Shown here: one piece after another, positions 4,160 through 20,825 of the stretch
How the letters are laid out: each line of letters opens with the position of its first letter
Numbering within the stretch: position 1 is the stretch's first letter
Virus record (IMG/VR): IMGVR_UViG_3300043570_001110
Coordinates: 1 to 20,825 of that record
DNA length: 20,825 nt
From: a virus
Direction: 5' to 3' (one strand)
Program-made: the position numbers and the translations under genes
Notes under the pieces: generated by a model
The model's input: the letters and a program-made list of their open reading frames with translations, nothing else
The model's database searches: none
Told to the model about the DNA's origin: nothing

Positions 4160-4609
4160 ATGCCTCAGTACTATGGATATTCAAGCATCAATGCTAACAA
4201 ACCCAAAACAACTAATGCCATATCAGGAGCAGATGGGGGTCCTGGAGGCATAAGACAACCAATTTACTGGGGAAAGAAATTTACCTTAGTAGATGAGCAG
4301 CTAGTGATTCAAGATTTTATTAATGCGTTCAATATTAGACAGGGTACTAAGGTAGGTAAACCAGGATATGGAACCACAATGTGGGACTTTGTGTTTGAAC
4401 CAAATACGGCTGACATAGTACAGGCCATTCAAGCTGAAGTTCGTAGAGTTGCTTCCGCAGATCCAAGAATTCAAATTGCTAATATCAGCGTCTATCCAAA
4501 AGAGAATGGCATACTAATTGAATTAGAAATGGCAGTTACTCCTTTTAATCAAGCACAATTAATATCAGTGTTCTTGAATCAACAAACAGGCACTGCCGGA
4601 CCGCAATAA
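4160..4609 (+). CDS. 25: Baseplate wedge protein gp25 (GPW/gp25 family)
   Basis: This is a 149-residue member of the gp25/GPW family, slightly longer than T4 gp25 (132 residues). In T4, gp25 sits in the baseplate inner ring, bound to the gp6 core, where it helps nucleate sheath assembly; the family is related to the lysozyme-like wedge proteins of contractile systems. The diagnostic stretch is the segment IRQGTKVGKPGYGTTMWDFV at about residues 58-77, followed by FEPN and a helix (TADIVQAIQAEVRRV), then the paired strands IQIANISVYP and GILIELEMAV. A Gly-rich N-terminal leader of about 30 residues precedes the domain. An in-frame TAG at 4142-4144 makes ATG 4160 the only start. It has a poor ribosome binding site (AGGG, 13 bases upstream). 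It lies 20 bases after the spike gene and directly before gp6, its physical partner. Confidence 0.93.
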   Translation: MPQYYGYSSINANKPKTTNAISGADGGPGGIRQPIYWGKKFTLVDEQLVIQDFINAFNIRQGTKVGKPGYGTTMWDFVFEPNTADIVQAIQAEVRRVASADPRIQIANISVYPKENGILIELEMAVTPFNQAQLISVFLNQQTGTAGPQ

Positions 4610-4664: not shown

Positions 4665-7600
4665 ATGGCAACAAGTTCTAGACAATCTGCTTTGTTCGGT
4701 TTGAATGACTGGAAGACTATCTACCAAACCTTCAGTGAAGCTGACTTTAGAAGTTATGACTATGAAACTTTAAGAAAAAGTTTCATTGACTACCTGCAAC
4801 TTTATTATCCCGAAACATTTAACGATTACACTGAATCAAGTGAGTTCATTGCATTGCTTGATGTCATTGCGTTTATGGGACAAGGTCTTGCATTTAGAAA
4901 TGATTTGAATGCTCGTGAGAACTTTATCGATACTGCTGAGCGTAGAGACAGTGTTATCAAGCTTGCCAATCTTGTCAGCTACACACCAAAAAGAAATATC
5001 GCAGCACAGGGTTACTTAAAGGTAACAAGCGTGTCTACTACTCAAAACATTTCTGACATTAACGGCCTAAATCTCAGTAACCAAACTATTCTTTGGAACG
5101 ACCCTGCTAACCCTAATTGGTTAGAACAGTTTAACACCATCATCAATGCGACCCTAATCGATACTCAAAAAATAGGAAAGCCAGGCAATGTGCAAGATTT
5201 GCTAGGAGTAACTACTGCTGAATACACGATGTCTATCCCTAATACTGTTTTGCCTATCGTGCCATTTGAAAGCACAGTTGATGGAGTCAACATGGGCTTT
5301 GAACTAGTAAGCGCAAGTTCGGTAGACACTGATTATGTGTACGAGATTCCGCCGGCCCCATCTGGACTATTCAATATTCTTTATAGAAATGATAAGTTAG
5401 GCTTTGGCAGCCCTCAAACTGGGTTCTTCTTTTACTTCAAGCAAGGGTCGCTTACTACATATGATTTTTCTTTCCAGCAACAAATTAGTAATCAAACTGC
5501 TGATATTGATGTGCAAGGAATCAACAACAGCGATACATGGCTATATCAGGTATTAGAAACCGGTAGTCTATCGCAGTGGACTCAGGTTGAAAATGTATAT
5601 GCAGATGCATATTTGCAGACCGAATCATCAAGTAGAGCAATCTTTTCTGTTGACTCTAGATTTAATGATCAGGTTACCTATGTATTTGGTGATGGCGTAT
5701 TCAGTGCTATCCCTGTAGGAAACTTTACTGCATATGTACGAGCAGGAAATGCGTTAAGCTACACGATTGATCCGCTAGAAATGGCCGGCGTTAGCGTAAC
5801 ATTTACATATTTGAGCAGAGTAAACAAGTTCGAAACTATTACTTTTAATCTAGAATTGCCTTTGCCGGTAACTACTGCACAGCAGCGTGAAGCACTAGAT
5901 GAAATTAAACTTCGTGCGCCTACTCGTTATTACACACAGAACAGAATGGTTAACGGTGAAGATTACAATAACTTCCCTTATACATTGTACAGTTCAATTA
6001 TTAAAAGTAAAGCAATCAATAGATCAAGCATCGGTGTAAGTAAAAACTTAGACTTACTAGATCCTACTGGTAAGTATTCAAGTACTAACAGCTTTGGTAA
6101 CGACGGAGCATTATATCAGGATGATAGTGATGGGTTCTTAACACTTACTATTAATACAACCAGTGACATCATTGCATTCTTTACTGATACACTATCAAGT
6201 GTGTTATCACTGAATCGGGCAACACAATACTATATTCAAAATTACACAAGATATAATCTGCCGTCTAGTCCAGCTAATCAAGTGGTATATTGGAAAACCA
6301 GTAGTGTAGATACTGGTGCGGAGTCAGGATATGTGTTTACTGTTTCTGGTTCACTAGAACAACCACAGAGTGTAGGCACATTCAATACTACTAATTTAAA
6401 ATACTTAACACCGGGCGCTATTCTGAAGTTCAATGCACCTGATGGTTATTATTTTGATCTTACTACAAATAGATTAGTCCCAGGTATTGCGCCTAGTAAT
6501 GAGAACACATATATTTGGTCTACTGTACTAAGTGTTGTCGGTGACGGTAGTAACAATGGAAGCGGTAGTTTTGCTAATGGAGCAGGCCCAATTAAAGTTA
6601 ACGGATATGTTCCTTCAGGGGTAATTCTCTCACAAATCATACCGGTCTTTGATAATTCGCTGTCTACTAATTTGATTCAAGAATGCTTGATTAAAATGGA
6701 ATTGCAACAAGACTTTTCTTTAGTATTCAATAATAGTTTATTAGTAAATGAAGAACGCTGGTCAATCAGTTCATTCAATGATTCAAATTACTTTGTAAAG
6801 TTTGACTCCACCGGTGCAAATACTTACACTATTACCTATAAAGCATTGACATATTACTTTGGTAGTGTGACTGACACAAGATTTACCTACAGTCCCAACG
6901 AGTTAGTGTACGATCCTTTCTCTGGAAAAATCATACAAGACTTCATCAATGTGTTAGCAATTAATAGTCAGTTTGGTTCAAACTCATCTTTGGGTCTCGA
7001 CATTAAAATGAATATATTAGGTCAGACAGTAGAAAGCGATGGATATGTTAACGACTTCCAAGTTGAGGTTGCAACTACTGATGTCAATAATCGCCAATTA
7101 ATATTAAATCCAGATTATTTTAATGAGATTACCGGATATCAAAATAACAACATTAATGTAGGTGTTTATGTATTTTTCGAAACAGTACAGGATCCTATTA
7201 ACTTAACTCGCCAGTATGTCATTCCATCTAGCGATGTCGTATATACCTATCCAAATAAAAGCCAAATCGAAGTCAACAAATATGACTATCCATTGGGCAC
7301 TTTGTTCTATGCTTATACAGAAAATAAGTTCTATAAGACAATACAAGATCAGACCAAAACAACTCCTGTCTATATTTTAACTGAACAGCTTCAATATTCA
7401 ATGAAGCCAGGTCGTCAAGGACTTAGCTACCAGTACCGACACAATAGTAACAACACTACAAGAATTGACCCAGTAACAACTAATATCATTGACTTGTATG
7501 TGGTTACTCAGTCTTACTATACCGCATATCAGAATTGGATTGTGGATACTACAAATACTATTCCAAAACCTACTAGACCTACTATCGGTGAACTACAACA

Positions 7601-8036
7601 AGAATACGGGCAGATTCAAAACTACAAAATGCTAAGTGATGCAGTTATAGTAAACAGTGTAGTATTCAAGCCTCTGTTTGGTGCTAAAGCAGATTCCGCG
7701 CTGCGTTCTACTGTTAAGGTTGTTAAAGCACCTAATGTAAACGCAAGTGATAGTGAAATTCGCAGTGCAGTACTTTCAGCCATGAATAACTATTTTAATA
7801 TTAACTTTTGGAATTTTGGAGACACTTTCTATTTCTCAGAACTCACTGCATATTTGCACGCAACTGTAGGAGAACTTATTAGTTCAGTCGTACTTGTTCC
7901 AAATGACCCATCTATGAGCTTCGGAGATTTATATGAAATAAAATGTATGCCCTACGAAATTTTTGTCAATGCAGCAACAGCAAATAATGTGGTTGTGATC
8001 CCAGCTCTCACACCCGCCGAATTACAGGTAAGATAA
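4665..8036 (+). CDS. 6: Baseplate wedge protein gp6 (long form)
   Basis: This 1123-residue protein is the gp6 wedge subunit, whose dimers form the iris-like inner ring around the hub; rearrangement of that ring starts sheath contraction (known from T4). The N-terminus (about 1-120) has the family layout: FGLNDWKTIYQTF, LRKSFIDYLQLYYPETFNDY, FIALLDVIAFMGQGLAFRND, and a segment ending NLVSYTPKRNIAAQGYLKV. A baseplate_J/gp6 signature lies near 415-435 (APTRYYTQNRMVNGEDYNNF). The C-terminus (about 1045-1065) has NFWNFGDTFYFSELTAYLH, the dimerisation/inner-ring end. T4 gp6 is 660 residues. The extra length here lies mostly between about 440 and 980, Asn/Thr/Ser/Tyr-rich and beta-like. An in-frame TGA at 4656-4658 makes ATG 4665 the start; the ribosome binding site is weak (AAAGAG, 11 bases upstream). 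It follows gp25, its partner, and ends eight bases before the giant ORF. Confidence 0.93.
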   Translation: MATSSRQSALFGLNDWKTIYQTFSEADFRSYDYETLRKSFIDYLQLYYPETFNDYTESSEFIALLDVIAFMGQGLAFRNDLNARENFIDTAERRDSVIKLANLVSYTPKRNIAAQGYLKVTSVSTTQNISDINGLNLSNQTILWNDPANPNWLEQFNTIINATLIDTQKIGKPGNVQDLLGVTTAEYTMSIPNTVLPIVPFESTVDGVNMGFELVSASSVDTDYVYEIPPAPSGLFNILYRNDKLGFGSPQTGFFFYFKQGSLTTYDFSFQQQISNQTADIDVQGINNSDTWLYQVLETGSLSQWTQVENVYADAYLQTESSSRAIFSVDSRFNDQVTYVFGDGVFSAIPVGNFTAYVRAGNALSYTIDPLEMAGVSVTFTYLSRVNKFETITFNLELPLPVTTAQQREALDEIKLRAPTRYYTQNRMVNGEDYNNFPYTLYSSIIKSKAINRSSIGVSKNLDLLDPTGKYSSTNSFGNDGALYQDDSDGFLTLTINTTSDIIAFFTDTLSSVLSLNRATQYYIQNYTRYNLPSSPANQVVYWKTSSVDTGAESGYVFTVSGSLEQPQSVGTFNTTNLKYLTPGAILKFNAPDGYYFDLTTNRLVPGIAPSNENTYIWSTVLSVVGDGSNNGSGSFANGAGPIKVNGYVPSGVILSQIIPVFDNSLSTNLIQECLIKMELQQDFSLVFNNSLLVNEERWSISSFNDSNYFVKFDSTGANTYTITYKALTYYFGSVTDTRFTYSPNELVYDPFSGKIIQDFINVLAINSQFGSNSSLGLDIKMNILGQTVESDGYVNDFQVEVATTDVNNRQLILNPDYFNEITGYQNNNINVGVYVFFETVQDPINLTRQYVIPSSDVVYTYPNKSQIEVNKYDYPLGTLFYAYTENKFYKTIQDQTKTTPVYILTEQLQYSMKPGRQGLSYQYRHNSNNTTRIDPVTTNIIDLYVVTQSYYTAYQNWIVDTTNTIPKPTRPTIGELQQEYGQIQNYKMLSDAVIVNSVVFKPLFGAKADSALRSTVKVVKAPNVNASDSEIRSAVLSAMNNYFNINFWNFGDTFYFSELTAYLHATVGELISSVVLVPNDPSMSFGDLYEIKCMPYEIFVNAATANNVVVIPALTPAELQVR

Positions 8037-8044
8037 GTATATAC

Positions 8045-11000
8045 ATGGCTAGAATCAGAACATTAGACTTCCTCCCGGAAATTTTTCAAACACCAAACAA
8101 CAGTGAGTTTTTGGCAGCTACGCTTGACCAAATCGTCAATCCCCCTATTACGGCTCGTATTCAGGGCTATGTAGGTAGCAAGCTGGGCTATGGAATCAAT
8201 GCAACTAATAACTATGTTACTGAACCAACAAAAATTCGTACCGATTATCAACTAGATCCAGCAGTTGTCTTTACTAAAACAGATGAATCCGTAGCTCAAG
8301 ATTTTATCAGTTACCCCGGTATGATCGATGCTTTGAATCTTCAAGGCGCAGTGTCGGACAACAATAGTAGATTGTTTGAAAGTCAATTCTATTCTTGGGA
8401 TAGTTTTACCAATCTAGACAAGCTAATCAACTACAACCAATATTATTGGCTACCTTTTGGTCCGCCCGCGGTAACCGTCGGTTCGGCAACAGTATTTTCG
8501 GCACAAGATTATGTTGTAACAGATTTATCAAATGGTTATAATATTAGTGAATTAGGGTCAGGTGCCGGTGCAGTAAATCCTACTCTTACTTTACTAAGAG
8601 GCGGTGTATATAATTTCTCAGTAAATCAAAATAGTCAGTTTTGGATTCAGGGCGAACCTGGCGTAACTGGATACAGTCCTGCTCAACCTAATCTTTATAC
8701 TCGTGATGTGTTAGGTGTATCTAATAATGGCGCTAGTCAAGGTATAGTTACATTTGCTGTGCCCAATAAAGATGCACAAGATCAATTTAATTTCCCATTT
8801 AATACTACAGTAGATGTCATTTCAGATGTGCCGTTCGATCAAATTAACGGTGCTAGATTAGCCGATCTTCCTTCAGGGATAGACGGTGTCACTGGATTGA
8901 ACGGTCTAACTGTTATGTTTTATAACACCGGTGTAGTGAATGAAACTGGTTATGTGAGTGCATATTTTGGTGAAACTGAATACGATACTAATCTTGGTTT
9001 AGTTCCCGATACGGTAGCAACTATAGGCAGCTGTAATACTACATCATTCTCTATGTCTGCCGGTACAACAGATTTGTTTTATGCAATCGATCCTAATACC
9101 GGAGTATTGATTTTTGCTCAACCAACTATTACTTTTGATAGCCCGGCATTTGGTGGAGTTATTCCAGGTCAGGTTTACTATGTAAGTAGCGTTCTGAACT
9201 CTACTGACTTTACAATTAGTCAAACCTTAGGTGGCCCTAATATCACATTGACTCCTGGTTCAGGAAGTATGCCAGCAAACATTAATCAAGGTTTGTATGA
9301 AGAAGGCTTCTATACTTCCGTAAGTCAGAATTTTTATCAAGTAGAATATGTCGGTAATCCTAGTGATCCAGTATTGCGTCTTAACCCAGCAGGGCTTGTA
9401 CCAATCAACACTAGAATTACACCGCTATATGGTAGAGAATATATTGGATTATCCTTCTATAAGTCAGTGGGCGGCGGAATCTCGCAAATACCATATCTCA
9501 GTGCAGTCAAGGACATTTTATATTATCAGGATAGCACAACTCCTAACAAGGTTGGTGTAATCCGCTTGATCGAAAGTAATGCTAAAAACACACTAGATGT
9601 TGAAACAGACATACTTGGACAAAAAAACTTCACTTCAACTAACGGAGTAGTTTTCACTAACGGTCTTAAGGTATCGTTTGACGGAGATGTAGTCCCTGCT
9701 AGCTATCTTACTGGAGAATACTATGTTGAAGGAGTAGGAACAGCAATGCAGCTTGTTCCTGTTGAATCGTTAATATGTCCTGAAGATTTTACTACTGGGG
9801 TGTTTAACCCATACGATGTTGCCCCATTTGATATTGGAAATTACGACAACAATTTGTTTGTTCCGGTCGACAAAGACTACATTACTATTGCTCGTAATAG
9901 CATAAGCAAGAATGCCTGGTCAAGAAGCAATCGTTGGTTCCACATTGATGTTATCAATGCTACTGCTTCATATAATAACAATCCTGCATTGATTACTGAA
10001 TTAGGAAATTACAATAACAAAGCACTTCGTCCTATTATTGAATTCTATCCTAATCTTAGATTATTCAATTCAGGATCAGCTGGTAAAAATCTTATCGATT
10101 TTTATGACACTAGACAAACTGATGCATTAAGTGTAATTCCCGGAACAAAAGCGTACTATCCAGATGTAGAGACATATACTGCCTATACAGCAACTATTGC
10201 GCCAGCAATCGCAACGACCTCAACTACAATTACTGTTGATGCAGATGATGTAACCGGAGCATTTCAAGTAGGAATGTATGTCGGTGATACTGATGCTGTA
10301 TTACCTACTAATAGCCAAATCACAAACATTACTGGTACAACCACATTAATAATCACAGTTGAATGGGAAAATGCAAAGACTTTTGCAGGAACAACCAATG
10401 CAAGTATTGTTGGTACTGATACTACTGTAAATAATTATGAGGTGTTTTCCGGCTCAAGAATCATATTCAGCGAAGACACTACTACTGGTACAAAAAATAA
10501 AATCTTTGTAGTTGAATTGGCAGAAGTTGTTGCTGGTCAAGGTCCAGTGATCACTCTCTCGCTTGCTGAAGATGCTGAAGTATTACCTGACGAACAAGTA
10601 GCTGTCCTCAGAGGCTATAATTATCAAGGTGATACTTTCTATTTTAATGGTATTGACTGGAATCAAGCACAGCTAAAAATAACAGTAAATCAAGCACCTT
10701 TCTTTGATGTATTTGACGAAAACAACATCAGTTTCGGTGACACCGCCGTTTACAATAGCTCATCTTTCCAAGGTAACAAACTATTTTCTTACGGCTTCAG
10801 TGACACTACAATTGATGATCCTATCTTAGGATTCCCGATTAGATTTTCTTCAATCGACAATGTAGGAGATATTAGTTTTGATGTTTCGTTGAACTTAGAT
10901 ACTTTTGATTATGTTGCTTTGGGTAATCCTATTACGCAAAAAGTCAACACCGGCTATGTGTATAACTATGATACTAGAACCGATTACAACAGACTATTAG

Positions 11001-14000
11001 GATGGGAAACTGCGGTAGCTCCTTCGACACAATATCAAGTGTTCAGCTTCCCTTATAATCAATTTAGTCAACCATCACAGTTCACTTGCGATATTGCAAT
11101 GCTTCCCGTATTAGGTTCGGATAAATTAGGCTGGCCTAGAATACAGGTATATTTCAATAACATATATCAAGCTCCAGAAAATTACTCAGTAAGCGTAGGT
11201 ACAGATTCAACAGTCGTTACTATTTTGACAACACCGGCTGATCCAAACAATACAGTAATTCAAGTTTTATTATTAAGTGATCAGGTAAGTGAAACAGCAT
11301 ACTACACTATTCCGATTAACTTGTCAAACAACCCATTCAATGGAGATGTAACTACTGTTAATGTAGGGGATGTTCGTCAACAATATCGTGATATCTTCAT
11401 CAATGCGCCTAACACTTCAGGTGAAATTTTTGGACCAAATAACTACCGCGATTTAGGTAATCTTAACATCTATGGTACAAAGATTATTCAAAATAGTGCA
11501 AGTCTTGTTCTGCCTGGTACATTCTTACGCAAGAAAGAACACGATCTATTCAACGCCCTACTATTCAACAGTCGTGAATATATCAAGTACAAGCAGTTAA
11601 TTGTTGATACCGTACAGAACACAGATTATGTGCAAAGATACACTCCTAGTGAAATCTTAGATGATGCACTTGATCAAATTACTGCGGCAAAAAGTCAACT
11701 CAACGCTTTCTTTTGGTCTGACATGTTGCCAAGCAAGAGTCCCTATAGATCAAACACTTATACATTTAATAACAGCTTAGATACATCAATCTATCCGTTA
11801 TCTAAAATCTATAACTTTGAAAACGCAAATTATAATGGTGTGTTAGTATACCTAACTAGAACAGTTTCAGGCCTAACCTTCCAGCAACAACTATTAAGTG
11901 ATGTAGATTACACTGTCAGTACCGACAGTCCTTCATTGACAATTACTTTAGATTTGCAGCCGGGTGATAAGATTGTAATCAAAGAATACAACCAAACATA
12001 TGGTTCATATGTTCCTAACACTCCTACTAAGTTAGGATTATATCAGGCATTTGAACCGGAAGTTGTTTTGGACATCAACTATAACACTCCTACTTATTTC
12101 ATCAAAGGACATGACGGATCATATACTAAACTATATGGGCAGTATCTACCTGAAGTGAATGTGCTAGTTGATTTCAGAGATCAAGCATTGCTTGAGTTTG
12201 AAAAGAGAATCTACAACAACTTAAAGTTAAGCACCGAAGTGCCTATTTACGATTACGAAGTTGTTCCGGGGTACTTCAGAGATTCAACCTACAGTTGGGA
12301 TGAATTCTTAGAAATGTATTCACCTGGATTCTTGAATTGGATTGGACAAAATAGATTAGATTATAAGACACAATTCTTTAATAAACTTAACGAATGGACT
12401 TATAACTATACTAATTCACAGAACAAGCTAGACCGCGCTCCTATACTTCAGGGCTATTGGAGAGGGTTGTATGAATATCTCTATGACACTACCACTCCTG
12501 AAACTACTCCGTGGGAGATGCTAGGGTTTGCAGAACAGCCTAGCTGGTGGACTCAGCGTTATGGTCCAGCTCCATATACTAGTGATAATGGTATTTTGTG
12601 GAGTGACCTAGAAGAAGGTTTGGTTTGGAACAACGGCGACAGCTATGTTATTCCTGAATTAGCTCGTCCTGGCTTGTCAAGTTTAATTCCTGTCAACAGC
12701 GCAGGTGAATTGTTGACTCCTTTTGTTAGCGTAGTTGCAAACTACAACCCAAGCACTTTCCAGAAAGATTGGAAGATTGGCGACATGGGTCCAGTAGAAC
12801 TAAGCTATCGTCGTAGTTCTTCTTGGCCATTCGATCTAGTCAAGCTATTTGCGTTGACAAGACCGGCCGAATTCTTTAATTTGGCCGTAGACCTAGACAA
12901 CTACAAATACAATCCAGAATTTAATCAATATTTGGTAAACAATCGTCAACACTTGATTATTAATGAAATTGAAATTTACGGAAATGGCACTGCCAAAACC
13001 TCATACATCAACTGGATTGTTGATTATGAAAAGCAACTTGGCATCACTGCTACTGAGAATATTACAACGCTGTTGGATAACCTTGATGTAAGACTAGCTT
13101 ATAGACTAGCAGGCTACAGCGACAAGACACTACTTAAGTTTTATGTTGAAAAGGGTTCACCTAACAGTAACAATGCTTCACTGCTAATTCCTGATGAAAG
13201 CTATCAGGTACTATTGTACGATAACCAAGCATATGATCAATTGATGTTTACTGGCGTAGTGATACAGAAAACTGCTCAAGGTTGGACAGTATATGGTAAT
13301 AGTCAAACTTTTGCGTATTTCAATACTTTGCAACCAGTCTATAGCGGAAACAATTTTGAAATTGCAGTTGACGGCGCATCAGTTAATATCACTAATAATT
13401 ATAGCTCCAAAGAAGTATTAGTGCCGTACGGTACTATATTCTACAGTTATCAAGAAGTAGCACAATTTATACTAAGCTATGCTGCTTATCTACAATCTAA
13501 GGGTATGATTTTTGATACCATCGAAAACGGCAGAGAAGTTAACTGGGAACTAATGGTACAAGATTTCTTGTATTGGGTACAGTTAGGTTGGGAAGTTGGC
13601 AGCGTACTCACAATAAATCCAGCAGCCGGTGGCATCAAGATCAATAAAGAAAGCACCGTAGTAGAACCATTAACTCTACAGCAACAGAATTTCATTCTGA
13701 ATCAGGATCTATACCCTATACAAATGAACAATCTTTCTGTGTACAGAAATGATACTGAGTTCAACGCAGTACCGCTAAACACGGGGGATTCTTTGAGCTA
13801 TGGACAATTTAACTTAAACAACTTTGAACATGCTATCGTGTTTAATAATGTGACCTTGTTCAATGATATCATCTATAATTTGGTTACTGGCTTAAGACAG
13901 AATAGAGTAACTGTCACTGGAACTAAAACTGCTGAATGGAACGGTACGGTAAATGCATATGGCTTTATTATCAATCAAGACAATATACAAGAGTGGTCAC

Positions 14001-17000
14001 CTAATGTAAAATACACTAAGGGAAGAATTGTCAAGTATAAAAACAGATATTATTCTGCACTACAAATCATTCAACCTGCATTAGTATTTGAAGAATTAAA
14101 CTGGGCATTGATTGACTACGAAAATATTCAAAAAGGAATGCTGCCTAACGCAAGCACTCGTGCGTATGAAAGCACTTTGTATTACGATATAAACAAAGCC
14201 AATCTTGAGCGAGATGCAGACTTGTTGAGCTATTCGCTTATCGGATATCGCCCACGAGATTACCTAGCTTTGGTAGACTTAACTGATGTAACCCAAATCA
14301 ATGTTTACAAAAACTTGATTAGAAATAAGGGTACTCGAAACGCCACTGTTGCATTTAAGGGAGCTAATCTCCCTCAGGGCGGAATTGATTATGATGTGTA
14401 CGAAAACTGGGCTATCAAATCCGGAGAATTCGGCGGCACACTAAATGATAATTTTGTTGAGTTTAAGCTTAGCCAACCTAGTTTAACAGGAAACCCTTCA
14501 ATTGTTGCATTAACTGAGGGAATCTACACACCTGGTGCTAATCAAGAAGTGCCAACATACAGTTTATATAACTATGGTCGTTCGATAACTAGCCCAAATA
14601 TTCTTAGTACTACATCATTAACCTATCCTAACCCATTATATCCAAATGCTGGATATGTGAACTTTAATGATGTTGAAATGGCATCTTATTACTTCTCTGG
14701 TTTACCAGCAGCAGTAGATGCTAACAGCATTGTTGTTCCAATCAATGAATTCTATGTTCGTGATTATATGTGGTTAGCTAACTTCAAAGAGAAATGGGGA
14801 GTGTTTTCTTGGAAGCCGATCGGACAAGTGCTACAGGTAGTGGGCAATCTTAATGGAACAGCAATTGTATCTTTTGCTCAACCTCATAATCTACAACGCC
14901 TTGACCCCCTATCAATCATTAATTTTGCTGCTAATGTAGATGGATACTATATCGTTACCGAAGTTTTAGGATTGAATCAGGTAGTTATTAATCTGTCTGT
15001 AGGAAACGCCACTAACAATGCAATTCAAGGTTTCGGCATCGGCTTGTCATTTGTTAATCAAAGAGTTGCAACTCCGGCTGATATTAAAAGTATTGATTTG
15101 CTTGAAGCAGAATTCCAAAAGAATACTGTATGGGTAGACGAAAATAATAATGGCGACTGGGCTGTATACCGCAAGAGCATCAACTATCAAAGCCAAGGTC
15201 AACTAGAAGTAGACAACTCTACCACATACGGTACTGCTGTTGCCTACACTCCTGACATGGGTTATCTAGTAAGTGACGCAGGCGCTGGAATTCTATATCG
15301 TTATAGTTATGACGATGTAAATGGTACATACGCTATCGGTGAAACTATCACTGAGGGTACATCATTTGGTACAAAGATTGTTTACGCTAATAACATTTAT
15401 GTAGTCTCTGAGCCAACAAGCGGTACACCGAAAGTATATGTCTATACATTGAACGATAGCGTATTGTCAGATGATATCGTAAGCTATCAGACAATTACAG
15501 CTCCAGTAGGTGTGACTAATTGGGGGACAGAACTAGCAATTAGTGATGACACTAACTGGATTTATATCAGTGACTTGACAACCGGTAAGGTCTATGTTTA
15601 TCGCAAGCAGAACATCAATCTAACTGCTGGTTATTTTGTTGCTGGTCAAACTTATACTATCACTGATGTAGGTAATACCAATTTTACTGCAATTGGTGCC
15701 ATTGAAAATAGTGTCGGTATTACCTTCGTAGCGACAGGAATTGGTTCTGGTACAGGTACTGCAATGCAGGTCACCTATGAACAGTCTGCAATCATTGATG
15801 GTTCAGTATTAGGCCTTGTCAGTGCTGATGGTTTTGCTAAATCTACGACAACAAATCAAACTGGTTCTGTACTCGTAGTCGGCGCGCCAAACAAGAACTT
15901 TAGCTCATTAATTCTTGACAATGGAGCTGCTTATCTCTATCAGCGAACCATACAAAATATCGAAGTACCGTTCAATTCTATTCCTAATACTCCGCAGACA
16001 TTCCAGCTAGCTTGGACTCCTACTACTGTAGGAACAACTGTATCAAGCACAACTGCTCCTAATACAGTTACACTAGCAAGTGCAGCAGGAATTGCTGAAA
16101 ACGATCCTATCATCTTTACTGGTGTGGGATTAGGCGGTACTGAGGTTGAAACTGATATGGTTTACTATGTTGCAGGTACACCTGTCGGTAACACCATTCA
16201 ACTTAAGACAAGTCGTTCTTCGTCAACTCCTATTACTGTAATAACAGATGGCTCAATTACCGGAGTAACCGCTACAGCACAAACCACCCCGCTTTATGTA
16301 ACCGTAAACAGCACATTAGTAGATGATATTAACTACGCAAGTGTTGGTAGCATGTTCTATTATACCGGAACACTTCAGGCAGGTGATATTGTAAATGTTA
16401 GTGACAATCAGTTCAATGTGATTCAAGTATTGAATAATGATTATGTTGACAGAACTAATATTCAATTTGGTTATGACCTCGATATTAACAAACAAGGATC
16501 AGATATTCTTGTAGGTAGTCCATTCGAAATCGATAGCAAGAATCGTGAAGGTGCAGTATATCGCTTTACTAACGGCGGAGCAAGACACGGTATTGTAGTT
16601 GGCACAACTGATTGTAATGTAGTAGGTAATCGTAATTTATTGATTAATGGTTTCTTAGTTCAGCTTACACCTGGCGACGCTACTCATATCGCTGCGACAA
16701 TTAACACTAACAACATCACTAATATTCAAGCAGCCGCATCTAACGGTAAATTGATAATTCAGGTTATTGATACTGACTTAACTATCAATAATGAAAAGTT
16801 AGTTATCACTGCGTTCGACGGAAGTACGTTGAATGAGCTTGGATTGCAAATCTTTACTAAGACTCAGATTATTAATTGTCCGCATGAGCAAGGCCCAACT
16901 CAGTTTGGTAGTGCAATCAAGATTAGTGATTCGGGTTCAGTAGTAATCAGTGCGCCTGTAGGAACTCGTTACGAAGGCACTACATTCGATTTTACCGACG

Positions 17001-20000
17001 ATGAACAACTAGACAACGACACGGTATTTGATAACAATGCAACTCGATTTGTAGAAAGTTATCCAAACGCAGGCGCAGTCTACATGTTTGATTTCTTGGG
17101 TCAGAACAATGAAAGCTTACTCAATCCTGGATCATATGTATATGCACAGTCAGTAAACAGTAATAGCCTAGATTATGGCTTTAATCCTCAATACGGCTAC
17201 TCACTAGATTTCAATGACAATATTGTATTAGTAGGTGCACCTAACATGCAAGGTGGATTGGTCACTGGCGGTCAAGTGGTTGTGTACAATAATTCAACTG
17301 GTATTCAAGATTGGGCCGTGTACCGTCAGAGTTCAGCAATAGTAGATATCGAAAAGATTCAAAATACACAAATCTTTAGTGCTGAAACTAATAACACCTT
17401 AATAAACTTAGATTACATGGATCCATTAAATGGCAAGTTGCTAGGTGCAGTAAGACAAGACATTGACTATGTAACGAGCGTAGACCCAGCAAAATACAAT
17501 AGTGATCTTGCACCCATTACTGGACAAGTTTGGGGAGCAGAACATGTGGGTGAAATTTGGTTCAATACAAATAACATTCGATTCTTGAACTATCATCAAA
17601 ATGATCCATCATATAATGCAAGATACTGGGGAACACTATTCCCAGGATCTGATGTTGCAGTCTTTACTTGGGTAGCAAGTAATGTTCCGCCTAATAACTA
17701 TCAAGGTACTGGCACCCCATTGAATTCTAATCTGTTTTCTGTGAGTAGCACATTAAATGCTTCTGGAATCGCAGTTCCTATATACTATTTCTGGGTAAGA
17801 AATAGCAACATCATTTCGCAAAAACTAGGCAAGAACTTATCTGACACTATTATTGCATCATATATTGCTAATCCAAGAGCAAGCGGCGTTGCTTATATGG
17901 CTCCGATCTTGCCAAATGCTTTTGCACTTTATAATTGCTCACCTTACATCAATGCTAACGATAGTGTGTTCCATGTAGGATTCGCTAACGGCACAAGTGA
18001 CGATGTTGCACACAATGAATTCACATTAGTTCGTGAAAATTATCCTGACGATTTCTTGCCGGGCTTGCCATCTACTATCGTCAAGACAAACAACACTGAC
18101 AATAATTTAGTACAAAGTTTGGGCAAGACTTCAGCACCATATGGCTTGTATGATAGAATGTTAGATTCTCTCAGCGGCTGTGATGAGTCTGGACAGGTTG
18201 TTCCTAATCCATTCTTGCCTAAAGCAGTTCAATCAGGTATTCTAGCAAGACCAAGACAAAGCTTCTTCTTCAACAGATTTAAAGCATTGAATAACTATTT
18301 GGTTTACGCTAATGAAGTTCTATCTCGTTTCCCTGTTGCAGAAACTCGTCCAGACGCAACATTCTTATTTGCCTCAGGTGAGTTTTACAACACCAGAGAT
18401 TATTGGGAGTATGTAAATTGGTGGGCTGCGGGTTACGATGACAATACTAAAACTCTATTAGTAGTACCTACTTATGCTGATTTATCGGCACTCAATGTAC
18501 CTAACGGAACACTAGTAACAGTTGAACAAAACGGTGCAGGTAAATTTGAAATCTATCGACTAGATAGTGATGTGCTTGCAGTTTGGACAAGAGTTGGTTT
18601 AGAAAACGGTACAATAAGATTTAAATCAAGTCTTTGGGACTATAGCGCAGCAAAATTAGGATATGGTGGAGATTTCTATGATACTACCGTATTTGATCTA
18701 TATCCCAGCGAAGAAACAAAATACATCATTCGTGCATTGAATGAGCAGATTTATGTTGACGAATTAGTTGAGTTTAGAAATAAGAGCTTGATTTTACTAT
18801 TTGAATTCATTCAAAGTGAAACAACCGAGTCCCAGAATTATTTGCCGTGGCTCAATAAGACTTCACTTATTGATGTTTCGCATACTATTCGTGAACTGTT
18901 GCCTATTGAAAATCTAAAAACTGACAATCAAGAATTTTTAGAAGGCTATATCAACGAAGTAAAACCTTACCATGTTGTAATCAAAGACTTCTTGTTTAAG
19001 TACACAGGCACTGATGTATTTCAGGGAGACATCACTGATTTTGACTTACCTGCTCAATACAGTGCGGAATACGAAAAGTTTATTACTCCTCAGTTAGTTT
19101 ACGGAGCATCTGACAATGAGTATGAATACAGTGTAGACGATACTATTTGGGAAGATACTGAATACAGTCAGTGGTTTGCTAATAGAGGATTGTCAATAGT
19201 TGGCGAACCAAATTATCAAATCACTACGCTTGCCTCATATGTAAGCACAAGTTCAAATTACTTTCTAGTTGACAACGCTAGTGGTTTCCCCACTAACGGG
19301 ACGATTAAAATTAATGATGAAGAAATTGCTTACTCATCAGTTGATAGAGCGTTGAATCTTATCGGAGGCCTCTTAAGAGGAGTAAACGGTACAGCTATTT
19401 CTGAACATATTCCCGGAGAACTTATCTATACTGATTTACCTCCGGTATTGTTGCTGGATAGCGGCAGAGGGTATCTAGAGCCTCCTAAAGTTACAGCATA
19501 TATAGACACTGCAATTTATCCGGCGCCTACTGTTCCTGCTCAATTAGAAGCAGTCATGAATTTGGATAGTGTGCTACAGATTAATGTCATTAATCCAGGA
19601 CAAGGTTATGCAGTTCTACCGCAAATCATTATTGATCCTGCATACTCAGTAGCATTCAACAACACAAATGTAAATAATTTACTTCACACTATTAACATTT
19701 ATGCACCGAATCTACGAACAGGTGATATCGTGCAATATAAGAAAGCTCCTGATGGTAGTACGATTACCAAGCTCGTTGATAATCAGTGGTATTATGTAGG
19801 TGTTCTTGAAAGTGATCCAGTAGCAGTAATTGCCCTATACACTAACTATGCAGATGCATTACAAGATCATGATAGAATATTGATTACAACTGCTGGCACT
19901 AGTGTCGGCATGACTCTTAACGCTGGAGCAAAGGCATCAGCAATTACCAGTGCTTCTCCAATCAGAGAAAACAACATCACTATCAGATTTGATAGAACAA

Positions 20001-20825
20001 CTTATAACTCTCAGGTTCTTGATTGGGAAACTGGTTCATATTATGGTTCGTTCTTTGCAGGAAATTACTTCAACAGTGAGGCAGTTTCTAGTTCTTCAAT
20101 TTTGCTCGACAATGAAAACCCAGACATTAGCACAATTTTAGCTAGTGCCCAGGGAGTTGCATTTGAAATTACAGATGTTGACAATGAAAGACAATTGACC
20201 TGGTCATCCTTCGTGAGAAGTGTAGAAAGAACCTTAGCAACTAATGATTCAATTAGACTTATACCTTCTGTAAAGACTTTTGTTGGTACAGCGTCAATCT
20301 CCGGTACAGTAATGAATATCACTGCAATCAATGAGGGTACTGTAATAATTGGTACATATGTGTATGGTCCAAATATTGATCCTAACACTCGTGTCGTTTC
20401 ACAGACAAGCGGTACAACAGGCGGCACTGGCTTATATGAAGTTTCAGTCAGCCAGTCATCGGCTAGTAATACAGTTAGCGGATATGAAGAACATGTGTCA
20501 GGAAGTACATTGGGCTTCTATTCAGGAATGCCTGTCAAATTTGAAGGCTTTACTGCAGGTACTGGTCTACAAGACGGTGTAGAATACTATGTAAAGGATG
20601 TGTTGAACGCATTTGACTTTACGGTTTCTGCTACAGACGGCGGCTCAACTTATGCACTCAATAGTATTGATATCGGTTTCCAAACATTGCTATGTTATTC
20701 TGGCGAAGTCGTTGACACTGCTATATTAACCGTAAACTATCCGGGCATTCTAGATGTAACTGCGACAACAGCAGGGACAAATACTTTGACTGTTCCTATC
20801 TCAGAGATAGGAACTGGCGGAACAT
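8045..20825 (+). CDS. Giant virion structural protein, more than 4260 residues, 3' end outside window (baseplate wedge/periphery, gp7/gp8 position)
   Basis: One open frame runs from ATG 8045 to the window edge without a stop: 4260 complete codons, C-terminus missing. ATG 8045 is the only start possible after the in-frame TAA at 7985-7987, since no ATG, GTG or TTG lies between. It begins MARIRTLDFLPEIFQTPNNS. A Trp/Tyr/Pro-rich core recurs: NYNQYYWLPFGPP (about 130-140), KDYITIARNS...WSRSNRWFH (610-633), VNQAPFFDVFDENN (881-894), PINLSNNPFN (1090-1099), FLRKKEHDLFNALLFNSREY (1160-1179), PWEMLGF (1490s), KTSYINWIVDYEKQ (1650s), LDYMDPLNGKLLGAVRQDID (3122-3141), ALNEQIYVDEL (3560s) and EVKPYH (near 3640). 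These recall very large structural proteins of environmental T4-like phages (memory, not a search). Between core blocks sit inserted beta modules and a seven-repeat FG-GAP array (2395-3085). No signal peptide, catalytic motif or coiled coil is evident. Position suggests a baseplate wedge or fibre-like role; homology to T4 gp7 (1032 residues) is not visible. Confidence 0.9.
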   Translation, partial: MARIRTLDFLPEIFQTPNNSEFLAATLDQIVNPPITARIQGYVGSKLGYGINATNNYVTEPTKIRTDYQLDPAVVFTKTDESVAQDFISYPGMIDALNLQGAVSDNNSRLFESQFYSWDSFTNLDKLINYNQYYWLPFGPPAVTVGSATVFSAQDYVVTDLSNGYNISELGSGAGAVNPTLTLLRGGVYNFSVNQNSQFWIQGEPGVTGYSPAQPNLYTRDVLGVSNNGASQGIVTFAVPNKDAQDQFNFPFNTTVDVISDVPFDQINGARLADLPSGIDGVTGLNGLTVMFYNTGVVNETGYVSAYFGETEYDTNLGLVPDTVATIGSCNTTSFSMSAGTTDLFYAIDPNTGVLIFAQPTITFDSPAFGGVIPGQVYYVSSVLNSTDFTISQTLGGPNITLTPGSGSMPANINQGLYEEGFYTSVSQNFYQVEYVGNPSDPVLRLNPAGLVPINTRITPLYGREYIGLSFYKSVGGGISQIPYLSAVKDILYYQDSTTPNKVGVIRLIESNAKNTLDVETDILGQKNFTSTNGVVFTNGLKVSFDGDVVPASYLTGEYYVEGVGTAMQLVPVESLICPEDFTTGVFNPYDVAPFDIGNYDNNLFVPVDKDYITIARNSISKNAWSRSNRWFHIDVINATASYNNNPALITELGNYNNKALRPIIEFYPNLRLFNSGSAGKNLIDFYDTRQTDALSVIPGTKAYYPDVETYTAYTATIAPAIATTSTTITVDADDVTGAFQVGMYVGDTDAVLPTNSQITNITGTTTLIITVEWENAKTFAGTTNASIVGTDTTVNNYEVFSGSRIIFSEDTTTGTKNKIFVVELAEVVAGQGPVITLSLAEDAEVLPDEQVAVLRGYNYQGDTFYFNGIDWNQAQLKITVNQAPFFDVFDENNISFGDTAVYNSSSFQGNKLFSYGFSDTTIDDPILGFPIRFSSIDNVGDISFDVSLNLDTFDYVALGNPITQKVNTGYVYNYDTRTDYNRLLGWETAVAPSTQYQVFSFPYNQFSQPSQFTCDIAMLPVLGSDKLGWPRIQVYFNNIYQAPENYSVSVGTDSTVVTILTTPADPNNTVIQVLLLSDQVSETAYYTIPINLSNNPFNGDVTTVNVGDVRQQYRDIFINAPNTSGEIFGPNNYRDLGNLNIYGTKIIQNSASLVLPGTFLRKKEHDLFNALLFNSREYIKYKQLIVDTVQNTDYVQRYTPSEILDDALDQITAAKSQLNAFFWSDMLPSKSPYRSNTYTFNNSLDTSIYPLSKIYNFENANYNGVLVYLTRTVSGLTFQQQLLSDVDYTVSTDSPSLTITLDLQPGDKIVIKEYNQTYGSYVPNTPTKLGLYQAFEPEVVLDINYNTPTYFIKGHDGSYTKLYGQYLPEVNVLVDFRDQALLEFEKRIYNNLKLSTEVPIYDYEVVPGYFRDSTYSWDEFLEMYSPGFLNWIGQNRLDYKTQFFNKLNEWTYNYTNSQNKLDRAPILQGYWRGLYEYLYDTTTPETTPWEMLGFAEQPSWWTQRYGPAPYTSDNGILWSDLEEGLVWNNGDSYVIPELARPGLSSLIPVNSAGELLTPFVSVVANYNPSTFQKDWKIGDMGPVELSYRRSSSWPFDLVKLFALTRPAEFFNLAVDLDNYKYNPEFNQYLVNNRQHLIINEIEIYGNGTAKTSYINWIVDYEKQLGITATENITTLLDNLDVRLAYRLAGYSDKTLLKFYVEKGSPNSNNASLLIPDESYQVLLYDNQAYDQLMFTGVVIQKTAQGWTVYGNSQTFAYFNTLQPVYSGNNFEIAVDGASVNITNNYSSKEVLVPYGTIFYSYQEVAQFILSYAAYLQSKGMIFDTIENGREVNWELMVQDFLYWVQLGWEVGSVLTINPAAGGIKINKESTVVEPLTLQQQNFILNQDLYPIQMNNLSVYRNDTEFNAVPLNTGDSLSYGQFNLNNFEHAIVFNNVTLFNDIIYNLVTGLRQNRVTVTGTKTAEWNGTVNAYGFIINQDNIQEWSPNVKYTKGRIVKYKNRYYSALQIIQPALVFEELNWALIDYENIQKGMLPNASTRAYESTLYYDINKANLERDADLLSYSLIGYRPRDYLALVDLTDVTQINVYKNLIRNKGTRNATVAFKGANLPQGGIDYDVYENWAIKSGEFGGTLNDNFVEFKLSQPSLTGNPSIVALTEGIYTPGANQEVPTYSLYNYGRSITSPNILSTTSLTYPNPLYPNAGYVNFNDVEMASYYFSGLPAAVDANSIVVPINEFYVRDYMWLANFKEKWGVFSWKPIGQVLQVVGNLNGTAIVSFAQPHNLQRLDPLSIINFAANVDGYYIVTEVLGLNQVVINLSVGNATNNAIQGFGIGLSFVNQRVATPADIKSIDLLEAEFQKNTVWVDENNNGDWAVYRKSINYQSQGQLEVDNSTTYGTAVAYTPDMGYLVSDAGAGILYRYSYDDVNGTYAIGETITEGTSFGTKIVYANNIYVVSEPTSGTPKVYVYTLNDSVLSDDIVSYQTITAPVGVTNWGTELAISDDTNWIYISDLTTGKVYVYRKQNINLTAGYFVAGQTYTITDVGNTNFTAIGAIENSVGITFVATGIGSGTGTAMQVTYEQSAIIDGSVLGLVSADGFAKSTTTNQTGSVLVVGAPNKNFSSLILDNGAAYLYQRTIQNIEVPFNSIPNTPQTFQLAWTPTTVGTTVSSTTAPNTVTLASAAGIAENDPIIFTGVGLGGTEVETDMVYYVAGTPVGNTIQLKTSRSSSTPITVITDGSITGVTATAQTTPLYVTVNSTLVDDINYASVGSMFYYTGTLQAGDIVNVSDNQFNVIQVLNNDYVDRTNIQFGYDLDINKQGSDILVGSPFEIDSKNREGAVYRFTNGGARHGIVVGTTDCNVVGNRNLLINGFLVQLTPGDATHIAATINTNNITNIQAAASNGKLIIQVIDTDLTINNEKLVITAFDGSTLNELGLQIFTKTQIINCPHEQGPTQFGSAIKISDSGSVVISAPVGTRYEGTTFDFTDDEQLDNDTVFDNNATRFVESYPNAGAVYMFDFLGQNNESLLNPGSYVYAQSVNSNSLDYGFNPQYGYSLDFNDNIVLVGAPNMQGGLVTGGQVVVYNNSTGIQDWAVYRQSSAIVDIEKIQNTQIFSAETNNTLINLDYMDPLNGKLLGAVRQDIDYVTSVDPAKYNSDLAPITGQVWGAEHVGEIWFNTNNIRFLNYHQNDPSYNARYWGTLFPGSDVAVFTWVASNVPPNNYQGTGTPLNSNLFSVSSTLNASGIAVPIYYFWVRNSNIISQKLGKNLSDTIIASYIANPRASGVAYMAPILPNAFALYNCSPYINANDSVFHVGFANGTSDDVAHNEFTLVRENYPDDFLPGLPSTIVKTNNTDNNLVQSLGKTSAPYGLYDRMLDSLSGCDESGQVVPNPFLPKAVQSGILARPRQSFFFNRFKALNNYLVYANEVLSRFPVAETRPDATFLFASGEFYNTRDYWEYVNWWAAGYDDNTKTLLVVPTYADLSALNVPNGTLVTVEQNGAGKFEIYRLDSDVLAVWTRVGLENGTIRFKSSLWDYSAAKLGYGGDFYDTTVFDLYPSEETKYIIRALNEQIYVDELVEFRNKSLILLFEFIQSETTESQNYLPWLNKTSLIDVSHTIRELLPIENLKTDNQEFLEGYINEVKPYHVVIKDFLFKYTGTDVFQGDITDFDLPAQYSAEYEKFITPQLVYGASDNEYEYSVDDTIWEDTEYSQWFANRGLSIVGEPNYQITTLASYVSTSSNYFLVDNASGFPTNGTIKINDEEIAYSSVDRALNLIGGLLRGVNGTAISEHIPGELIYTDLPPVLLLDSGRGYLEPPKVTAYIDTAIYPAPTVPAQLEAVMNLDSVLQINVINPGQGYAVLPQIIIDPAYSVAFNNTNVNNLLHTINIYAPNLRTGDIVQYKKAPDGSTITKLVDNQWYYVGVLESDPVAVIALYTNYADALQDHDRILITTAGTSVGMTLNAGAKASAITSASPIRENNITIRFDRTTYNSQVLDWETGSYYGSFFAGNYFNSEAVSSSSILLDNENPDISTILASAQGVAFEITDVDNERQLTWSSFVRSVERTLATNDSIRLIPSVKTFVGTASISGTVMNITAINEGTVIIGTYVYGPNIDPNTRVVSQTSGTTGGTGLYEVSVSQSSASNTVSGYEEHVSGSTLGFYSGMPVKFEGFTAGTGLQDGVEYYVKDVLNAFDFTVSATDGGSTYALNSIDIGFQTLLCYSGEVVDTAILTVNYPGILDVTATTAGTNTLTVPISEIGTGGT
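9128..9240 (+). repeat. GG...YYV beta module, copy 1, in the giant protein
   Basis: Residues about 362-399 read ITFDSPAFGGVIPGQVYYVS followed by SVLNSTDFTISQTLGG. The pattern (hydrophobic)-x-F-x-x-x-x-x-GG, then GxxYYV, then FTIS recurs twice more in this protein (16067-16211, 20501-20635). I recall it from many phage tail and fibre proteins. The role is unknown; it is probably a small Ig-like or beta-sandwich decoration unit. Confidence 0.55.
10202..10430 (+). other. Thr/Val/Ile-rich module inserted in the core of the giant protein
   Basis: Residues about 720-795 are Thr-rich and beta-like (TTSTTITVDADDVTGAFQVG, ITNITGTTTLIITVEWENAK). They interrupt core-type sequence: aromatic, charged PDVETYTAY before and VFSGSRIIFSEDTT...KNKIFVVEL after. 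The flanks read as one continuous core block if the module is removed, so I treat it as an insertion. No named domain is recognised. Confidence 0.4.
15620..15769 (+). other. AGQTYTI...GSGTGTA module inserted between propeller repeats 3 and 4
   Basis: Residues about 2526-2575 read LTAGYFVAGQTYTITDVGNT, then NFTAIGAIENSVGITFVATG and IGSGTGTAMQ. I recall closely similar short units (YTI-x-x-VG-x-T-x-FT-x-IGA...GSGTGTA) from many phage structural proteins, where they are spread as exchangeable parts. Here it interrupts the FG-GAP series, so it would sit in a surface loop of the propeller. Confidence 0.55.
16067..16211 (+). repeat. GG...YYV beta module, copy 2, between propeller repeats 4 and 5
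   Basis: Residues about 2675-2723 contain VTLASAAGIAENDPIIFTGV, GLGG, then DMVYYVAGTP and NTIQLKTS. It matches copies 1 and 3 in the PIIFTG-GG-YYV order. It lies in the roughly 510-base spacer between the fourth and fifth FG-GAP repeats, which also holds other beta-rich sequence (PLYVTVNSTLVDDINYASVG). Confidence 0.6.
16574..16900 (+). other. Flagellin-insert-like domain between propeller repeats 5 and 6
   Basis: Residues about 2844-2952 include LLINGFLVQLTPGDATHIAA, TINTNNITNIQAAASNGKLI and a following IQVID...LVITAF strand pair, then LNELGLQIF. The order (short strand, GD-start helix ending AATIN, I-x-x-IQA-strand, NGKL-II strand) resembles the small insert domains of flagellin and hook-associated proteins. 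This resemblance is by eye and moderate. Placement again implies a loop decoration on the propeller. Confidence 0.4.
19232..19430 (+). other. FPxxGxIxI...RGVNGTxxxxH module
   Basis: Residues about 3730-3795 read FLVDNASGFPTNGTIKINDE, then EIAYSSVDRALNLIGGLLRG and VNGTAISEHIPGELI. The FPTxGxIxI, E-I-x-Y, GLxRGxxGT and H-x-x-G positions match a compact unit I recall in many phage tail, fibre and structural proteins. Function is unknown. It starts just after the last clearly core-like block (YSQWFANRGLSI). Confidence 0.55.
19369..19380. repeat. 12-base perfect palindrome inside the giant gene
   Basis: CCTCTTAAGAGG is a perfect 12-base palindrome. It encodes part of the GLLRG motif of the FPxxG module, so protein constraint may explain some of it. 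No function can be assigned. Confidence 0.4.
19442..19645 (+). other. Paired GxGYxxxP module
   Basis: Two related units occur: LLLDSGRGYLEPPKVTAYID (about 3802-3821) and INVINPGQGYAVLPQIIIDP (about 3847-3866). Each is a strand, a G-x-GY turn, then P-x-(V/I). Phage and environmental structural proteins often carry GGSGYTSxPxV pairs, and this looks like a diverged example. It is followed by a more core-like aromatic block (NQWYYVGVLESDP). Confidence 0.45.
20285..20482 (+). other. GTASISGT...GTGGTGxYxVSxSQ module
   Basis: Residues about 4081-4146 contain GTASISGTVMNITAINEGTV, then a VYGPNIDPNT turn, SGTTGGTGLYEVSVSQSSAS and NTVSG. I recall this shape (A-x-ISGT-x-(L/M)-x-(V/I)TA ... GTGGTG-x-Y-x-VS-x-SQ-x-V) from many phage tail proteins, often in tandem. 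Only one copy is visible before copy 3 of the YYV module. Confidence 0.55.
20501..20635 (+). repeat. GG...YYV beta module, copy 3
   Basis: Residues about 4153-4197 read GSTLGFYSGMPVKFEGFTAG, TGLQDGVEYYVKDVLNAFDF, TVSAT. The order matches copies 1 and 2, with F-E-G in place of F-T-G and AGTG in place of GG. A further strand, TAGTNTLTVPISEIGTGG, begins near 20768 and could open another module beyond the window. Confidence 0.6.
20792..20814. repeat. Perfect 11-base inverted repeat inside the giant gene
   Basis: GTTCCTATCTC (20792-20802) and GAGATAGGAAC (20804-20814) are perfect inverted repeats around a single A. In RNA this gives a stem of about nine pairs with a UCAGA loop. It lies in frame within the TVPISEIGTG coding stretch. 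It has no T-run after it, at least within the remaining 11 bases. Confidence 0.6.

Follow-up and report, generated by a model that had tools for sequence, protein, structure and literature searches.

This study asked whether a stretch of a giant open reading frame (ORF) in a virus record encodes an integrin-alpha-like beta-propeller within a phage structural protein, and which role such a fold might have there. The window, by which we mean the whole stretch of DNA analyzed, is a 20,825-base virus record with four main ORFs on the + strand. Family matches assigned the first three ORFs to a gp5-like hub protein with a long tape-measure-like C-terminus (24..4139, +), the baseplate wedge protein gp25 (4160..4609, +), and a gp6-like baseplate wedge protein (4665..8036, +). 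The hub protein comprises 1,371 residues, and a weak tape-measure-like match to phrog_305 was observed at its residues 756-1148. The fourth frame (8045..20824, +) runs past the window end and encodes at least 4,260 residues of a giant virion protein of the baseplate cluster, which matches phrog_10938 (E 1e-283), a virion structural protein family homologous to it over both flanks of the propeller. The whole gene is intact in two relatives (G001 34949-55207 and G002 311335-329538), in which the protein has 6,752 and 6,067 residues, and the frame measures 6,419-6,726 residues in six further long records. In another relative (L024), the giant ORF is broken into two frames within the propeller, through either an assembly error or a real frameshift. 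The bacterial genomes scanned contained no close relatives and gave no host hints.

The giant protein was assigned to a T4-like baseplate cluster on the basis of family homology and of synteny with gp5-gp25-gp6, the homologues of which adjoin the giant ORF. The giant gene lies directly 3' of gp25-gp6 in PA5oct, 121Q, and two long relatives; the complete gp5-gp25-gp6-giant order of the window recurs in 121Q and the long relatives, and PA5oct shows gp25-gp6-giant. The record of the PA5oct homologue, gp355, bears an ESI-MS/MS virion note. These results agree with the earlier note on this DNA, which had placed the domain in a structural protein associated with a T4-like baseplate, and the giant protein probably sits in the tail baseplate. 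In T4, gp7 holds the gene slot directly after gp6. By synteny only, the giant protein occupies this gp7 wedge position, ahead of the distal baseplate and fibre genes; a gp7 role is read from gene order alone, because no sequence similarity to gp7 was detected. Neither flank profile gave any match in the PDB search, and hhalign comparisons with T4 gp6-gp12 or gp53, which used single T4 sequences and leave room for very distant homology, gave no match. A side observation concerns L080, L081, and the region 3' of the giant gene in G001/G002: Atu_ph07 and Phosso have annotated radical-SAM genes close to this gene, and in the uncultivated relatives ORFs with similar cysteine motifs were seen by eye behind it.

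The earlier note had read seven FG-GAP units by eye at 15227-17299. Our analysis delimited seven A-B-C repeat units (residues 2393-2424, 2438-2470, 2491-2522, 2594-2634, 2805-2844, 2951-3020, and 3047-3083), which span window positions 15221-17293 and agree with that reading nearly exactly. According to the repeat units and DSSP assignment of the predicted model, strands A-C of blades 1 to 4 lie at 15221..15316, 15356..15454, 15515..15610, and 15824..15946, and those of blades 6 and 7 at 16895..17104 and 17183..17293, all on the + strand; strands A-C of blade 5 (16457..16576, +) provide the best FG-GAP_2 match of the window. A clear GAP-like signature is limited to blades 4-7 (VVGAP, LVGSP, ISAP, and LVGAP, respectively, the four signatures that the earlier note had listed), whereas the motifs of blades 1-3 are degenerate (VSD, VSEP, and ISD). 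Blade profiles were built from 55 relatives and compared with each other by using hhalign. The blade-versus-blade scores averaged 19.8, and 11 of the 21 pairs (52%) exceeded 20; against 14 random flank segments of the same protein, the mean was 8.2 and the maximum 14.1, and none of the 98 comparisons exceeded 20. Because the blade-blade scores are far above these controls, the similarity of the seven repeats exceeds chance.

The per-repeat search with FG-GAP (PF01839) that the earlier note had proposed revealed no match in the window record; the sister family FG-GAP_2 (PF14312) matched instead. It was found in 47 of the 55 relatives (best E 7e-10). The propeller of the window itself scored 21.0-21.7 bits, just under the curated Pfam cut-off of 23 bits, which was exceeded by the relatives L188 (55.4 bits), L189 (63.5 bits), and L190 (35.0 bits). 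When the propeller was compared with PHROGs, one weak match in a single member was obtained, and in a search of 50,697 phage records its matches were confined to the small module here termed insert 1.

An AlphaFold2 model of the window domain with 55 aligned sequences had a mean pLDDT of 85.4 and a pTM of 0.87, and its DSSP strands group into seven A-B-C-D blades. The strand at residues 2382-2390 (15188..15214, +), assigned by DSSP of the model, is likely the outer strand of blade 7 and would provide the usual velcro closure. Because the inserts depressed the TM-scores of the full window model, we folded L077, a relative with fewer insert residues (pLDDT 83.9, pTM 0.87). The Foldseek hits of this model were led by integrin alpha-V and alpha-5, with integrin alpha-V chains at the top (4um8, E 5e-10). 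The TM-score was 0.48 by target for 8w30 (integrin alpha-V; rmsd 7.7) and 0.74 by target length for CIAO1, a seven-bladed WD40 protein; the modest raw values are explained by the inserted modules that the L077 model still holds. The weak GAP motifs of blades 1-3 and the uneven blade lengths could point to a solenoid or a string of unrelated beta-domains. Nevertheless, two models at a pTM of 0.87, a Foldseek list led by integrin alpha chains together with the CIAO1 score, and the presence of seven units in relatives nearly free of inserts make such an arrangement scarcely credible. On the evidence of sequence and structure prediction, residues ~2382-3095 form a closed seven-bladed beta-propeller of the FG-GAP_2 type. 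A closed propeller with seven blades, on which the earlier note had staked its reading, is thus what the AlphaFold and Foldseek analysis it had suggested predicts. The fourth strands, the N-terminal closing strand, three inserted modules, an acidic loop in blade 6, and the insertion between DWAVYR strands were missing from that note.

The likeness to integrin alpha (alpha-V, alpha-5, and alpha-4) consists of the seven FG-GAP-like blades and the top PDB fold matches. In a PDB profile search, the best match of the propeller was integrin alpha-4, at a sub-threshold E of 0.027. Integrin alpha chains carry Ca2+-binding DxDxDG loops in blades 4-7. By contrast, the pattern D.[DN].[DNS]G is absent from all blades of the window, in which a DxDxDG-like motif occurs only in the entry hairpin preceding the propeller; among the 55 relatives, a Ca2+-loop-like motif was found outside this hairpin only once (L072). 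The phage propeller further differs from integrin alpha in its ~10% identity, its three inserted modules, its location within a viral baseplate protein, and its lack of a beta-chain partner. The term integrin-alpha-like used in the earlier note therefore holds for the fold and the blade count but not for the Ca2+ loops: the propeller is integrin-like in fold and architecture only and is no integrin.

Approximately one third of the propeller region consists of three inserted modules, which follow strand C of the consecutive blades 3, 4, and 5 and, according to DSSP, occupy their C-D loops. Insert 1, the TYTITDVGNTNFTAIGA... module in blade 3 (15611..15763, +), is present in 56% of the relatives and is substituted or missing in the remainder. 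Insert 2 in blade 4 (15980..16384, +) is an NDPIxFxG module, and insert 3 lies in blade 5 (16577..16843, +). Modules resembling insert 1 recur elsewhere in the giant protein, and many further copies of the NDPIxFxG module are spread along it; the giant protein holds many copies of both small modules found inside the propeller. The B-C loop of blade 6 (16973..17065, +) carries the invariant acidic motif TTFDFTDDE..DNDTVFDNNAT and is the most conserved stretch of the propeller, with many invariant columns. AlphaFold assigned this loop a low pLDDT of 35-40. Such low model confidence suggests a loop that is ordered by a partner.

Two near-identical strands bound the propeller: DWAVYRKS at its start and, as the counterpart, the exit strand DWAVYRQS at its end (17306..17329, +). 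The entry hairpin VWVDENNNGDWAVYRKS (residues 2361-2378; 15125..15178, +) contains a DxNxDG-like motif in 47 of the 55 relatives. The upstream conserved flank (residues 1086-2330; 11300..15034, +) is common to cultured jumbo phages to approximately residue 2203, and the downstream conserved flank (residues 3096-3800; 17330..19444, +) directly follows the junction in these phages, the match of which ends at residue 2203 (PA5oct) and resumes at 3073 or 3089. PA5oct, 121Q, SCTP-2, Atu_ph07, and Phosso have kept both flanks but are devoid of the propeller. Because their flanks match and the propeller is missing, these phages serve as natural no-propeller controls. The stretch between the flanks comprises 254 residues in PA5oct, 228 in 121Q, and 416 in SCTP-2, compared with ~850-955 in the window; in Atu_ph07 and Phosso, it comprises 1,534 and 1,512 residues of unrelated repeats, and their giant homologue has no FG-GAP_2 match. 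PA5oct has the short hairpin KVWIDSINSDNDWAV, a counterpart of the entry hairpin, where the window has the propeller. According to these sequence comparisons, the propeller was inserted into a conserved giant virion protein as a single unit, with one DWAVYR strand on either side. A LamG-like domain suspected by eye at the SCTP-2 junction was supported by neither the Pfam nor the PDB search. In the upstream flank of the window, a weak sub-cut-off match to CBM_5_12 (chitin-binding type) was observed at 13991-14065 (residues 1983-2007), and a PA5oct-like homologue is annotated as a 'chitin-binding type-3 domain-containing protein'.

We then selected relatives through alignment of the downstream flank and inspected the best 80 of 483. 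The propeller covered more than 600 of the 790 model positions in 79 of these 80 relatives, and the remaining one ends at a contig edge. As judged from these sequences, the propeller seems fixed in the uncultivated group to which the window belongs. It occurs across a large group of uncultivated jumbo phages with no cultured close relative. At the identical site, L189 (6840-8042) and L190, the flanks of which are ~31% identical to those of the window, carry a propeller that is almost free of inserts and measures ~400 residues; the L189 sequence shows seven FG/GAP units. Such distant relatives provide the clearest evidence for the propeller. L188 carries an alternative version of the propeller with different inserts.

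Seven-bladed propellers are already known from phage tails. PhiKZ gp131C (PDB 4GBF) is a seven-bladed propeller at the periphery of a jumbo-phage baseplate (PMC4901313); it shares the blade number and the jumbo myophage baseplate with the window propeller but is the C-terminal domain of another protein, and the PDB search revealed no sequence match between the two. The SU10 nozzle protein contains a propeller of seven blades, of which blade 1 bears a loop that docks the short tail fibre, and additional domains are inserted in the chain after blade 2 and before blade 3 (PMC9509320). The window propeller resembles it as a seven-bladed tail-protein propeller with inserted domains and a putative dock loop extending one blade, although a nozzle ring of a short-tailed phage differs from a myovirus wedge. 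The phrog_10938 proteins PA5oct gp355, 121Q gp582, and Atu_ph07 gp180 are homologous to the giant protein and share its flanks and gene order, but their junction lacks the FG-GAP propeller. FG-GAP_2 repeats do occur in related jumbo phages, namely in the 'hemagglutinin protein' gp320 of Atu_ph07 and in proteins of Sinorhizobium phage Phosso; however, these are separate proteins encoded at other loci, whereas the repeats of the window are inserted in the baseplate giant. Two neighboring hypothetical proteins of more than 3,000 residues in Phosso (48338-68978; L100 2339-22979) are full of FG-GAP_2 and lie away from the baseplate cluster. The earlier note, which knew of no characterized T4-like baseplate protein with this domain, had overstated the novelty in view of PhiKZ gp131C and the Atu_ph07 and Phosso repeats. 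The open-access literature searched contained no paper joining FG-GAP with phage and baseplate. The apparent novelty lies in an FG-GAP_2 propeller that is interrupted several times and is fixed within a baseplate protein of more than 6,000 residues.

Regarding its role, we consider it fairly probable that the propeller inserted at the gp7 position is a rigid platform that bears exchangeable modules together with a conserved loop for docking. As extrapolated from T4, six copies of the giant protein would surround the baseplate, each presenting its propeller as a rigid, disc-shaped platform. The conserved blade-6 loop would dock a conserved virion partner, which may be a fibre, a neighboring wedge, or an accessory protein. 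The modules on blades 3-5, which change faster, would face outward, where they could contact fibres, neighbors, or the cell surface. We read the blade-6 loop as a docking loop because its mean consensus is 83% (residues 2977-3007), compared with 61% over the whole propeller. The SU10 nozzle propeller, with its dock loop and inserted domains, is a working analogue of this platform.

By analogy with other phages, the propeller itself could instead be a receptor-binding domain that grips a glycan or protein of the host surface. We give clearly less credence to this possibility, which the earlier note had raised by proposing a receptor-binding platform. Phage host-recognition proteins include propellers, a host-receptor role has been speculated for PhiKZ gp131C, and the structure of the phi11 propeller, which has five blades, makes such a role plausible there (PMC4901313). 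Moreover, median identity to the window is lower in the blade cores (0.54) than in the upstream (0.635) and downstream (0.60) flanks, and the lowest consensus is found in inserts 1 and 2 (0.39 and 0.53, respectively). However, the most prominent loop is nearly invariant, which is atypical for a host-range determinant, and it resembles an internal docking loop more than a variable site of host contact; the propeller is present in all of the best 80 of the 483 flank-selected relatives; and no integrin-type Ca2+ site was detected. The strong and sequence-specific conservation of the blade-6 loop also argues against a mere spacer or stabilizing baseplate domain that has no specific partner and is one of many growth beta-modules, as does the occurrence of the propeller across lineages with ~30% flank identity. 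Although related cultured phages manage without the propeller, Atu_ph07 and Phosso fill the same site with other, unrelated repeats, and the giant protein is rich in recurring small modules, we consider the spacer role very unlikely.

The platform with a docking loop remains our preferred reading. We consider it rather unlikely that the propeller is a host-contact hub, in which six integrin-like discs surround the baseplate, each bearing three exchangeable modules on consecutive blades and held by one invariant docking loop; if true, this arrangement for host recognition would have no described counterpart among T4-like phages. The locus further indicates that a baseplate protein of a contractile tail can exceed 6,000 residues through the insertion of a whole domain at one hairpin. 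For a large uncultivated group of jumbo phages, the propeller offers a concrete candidate platform for docking or adhesion that can be put to the test.
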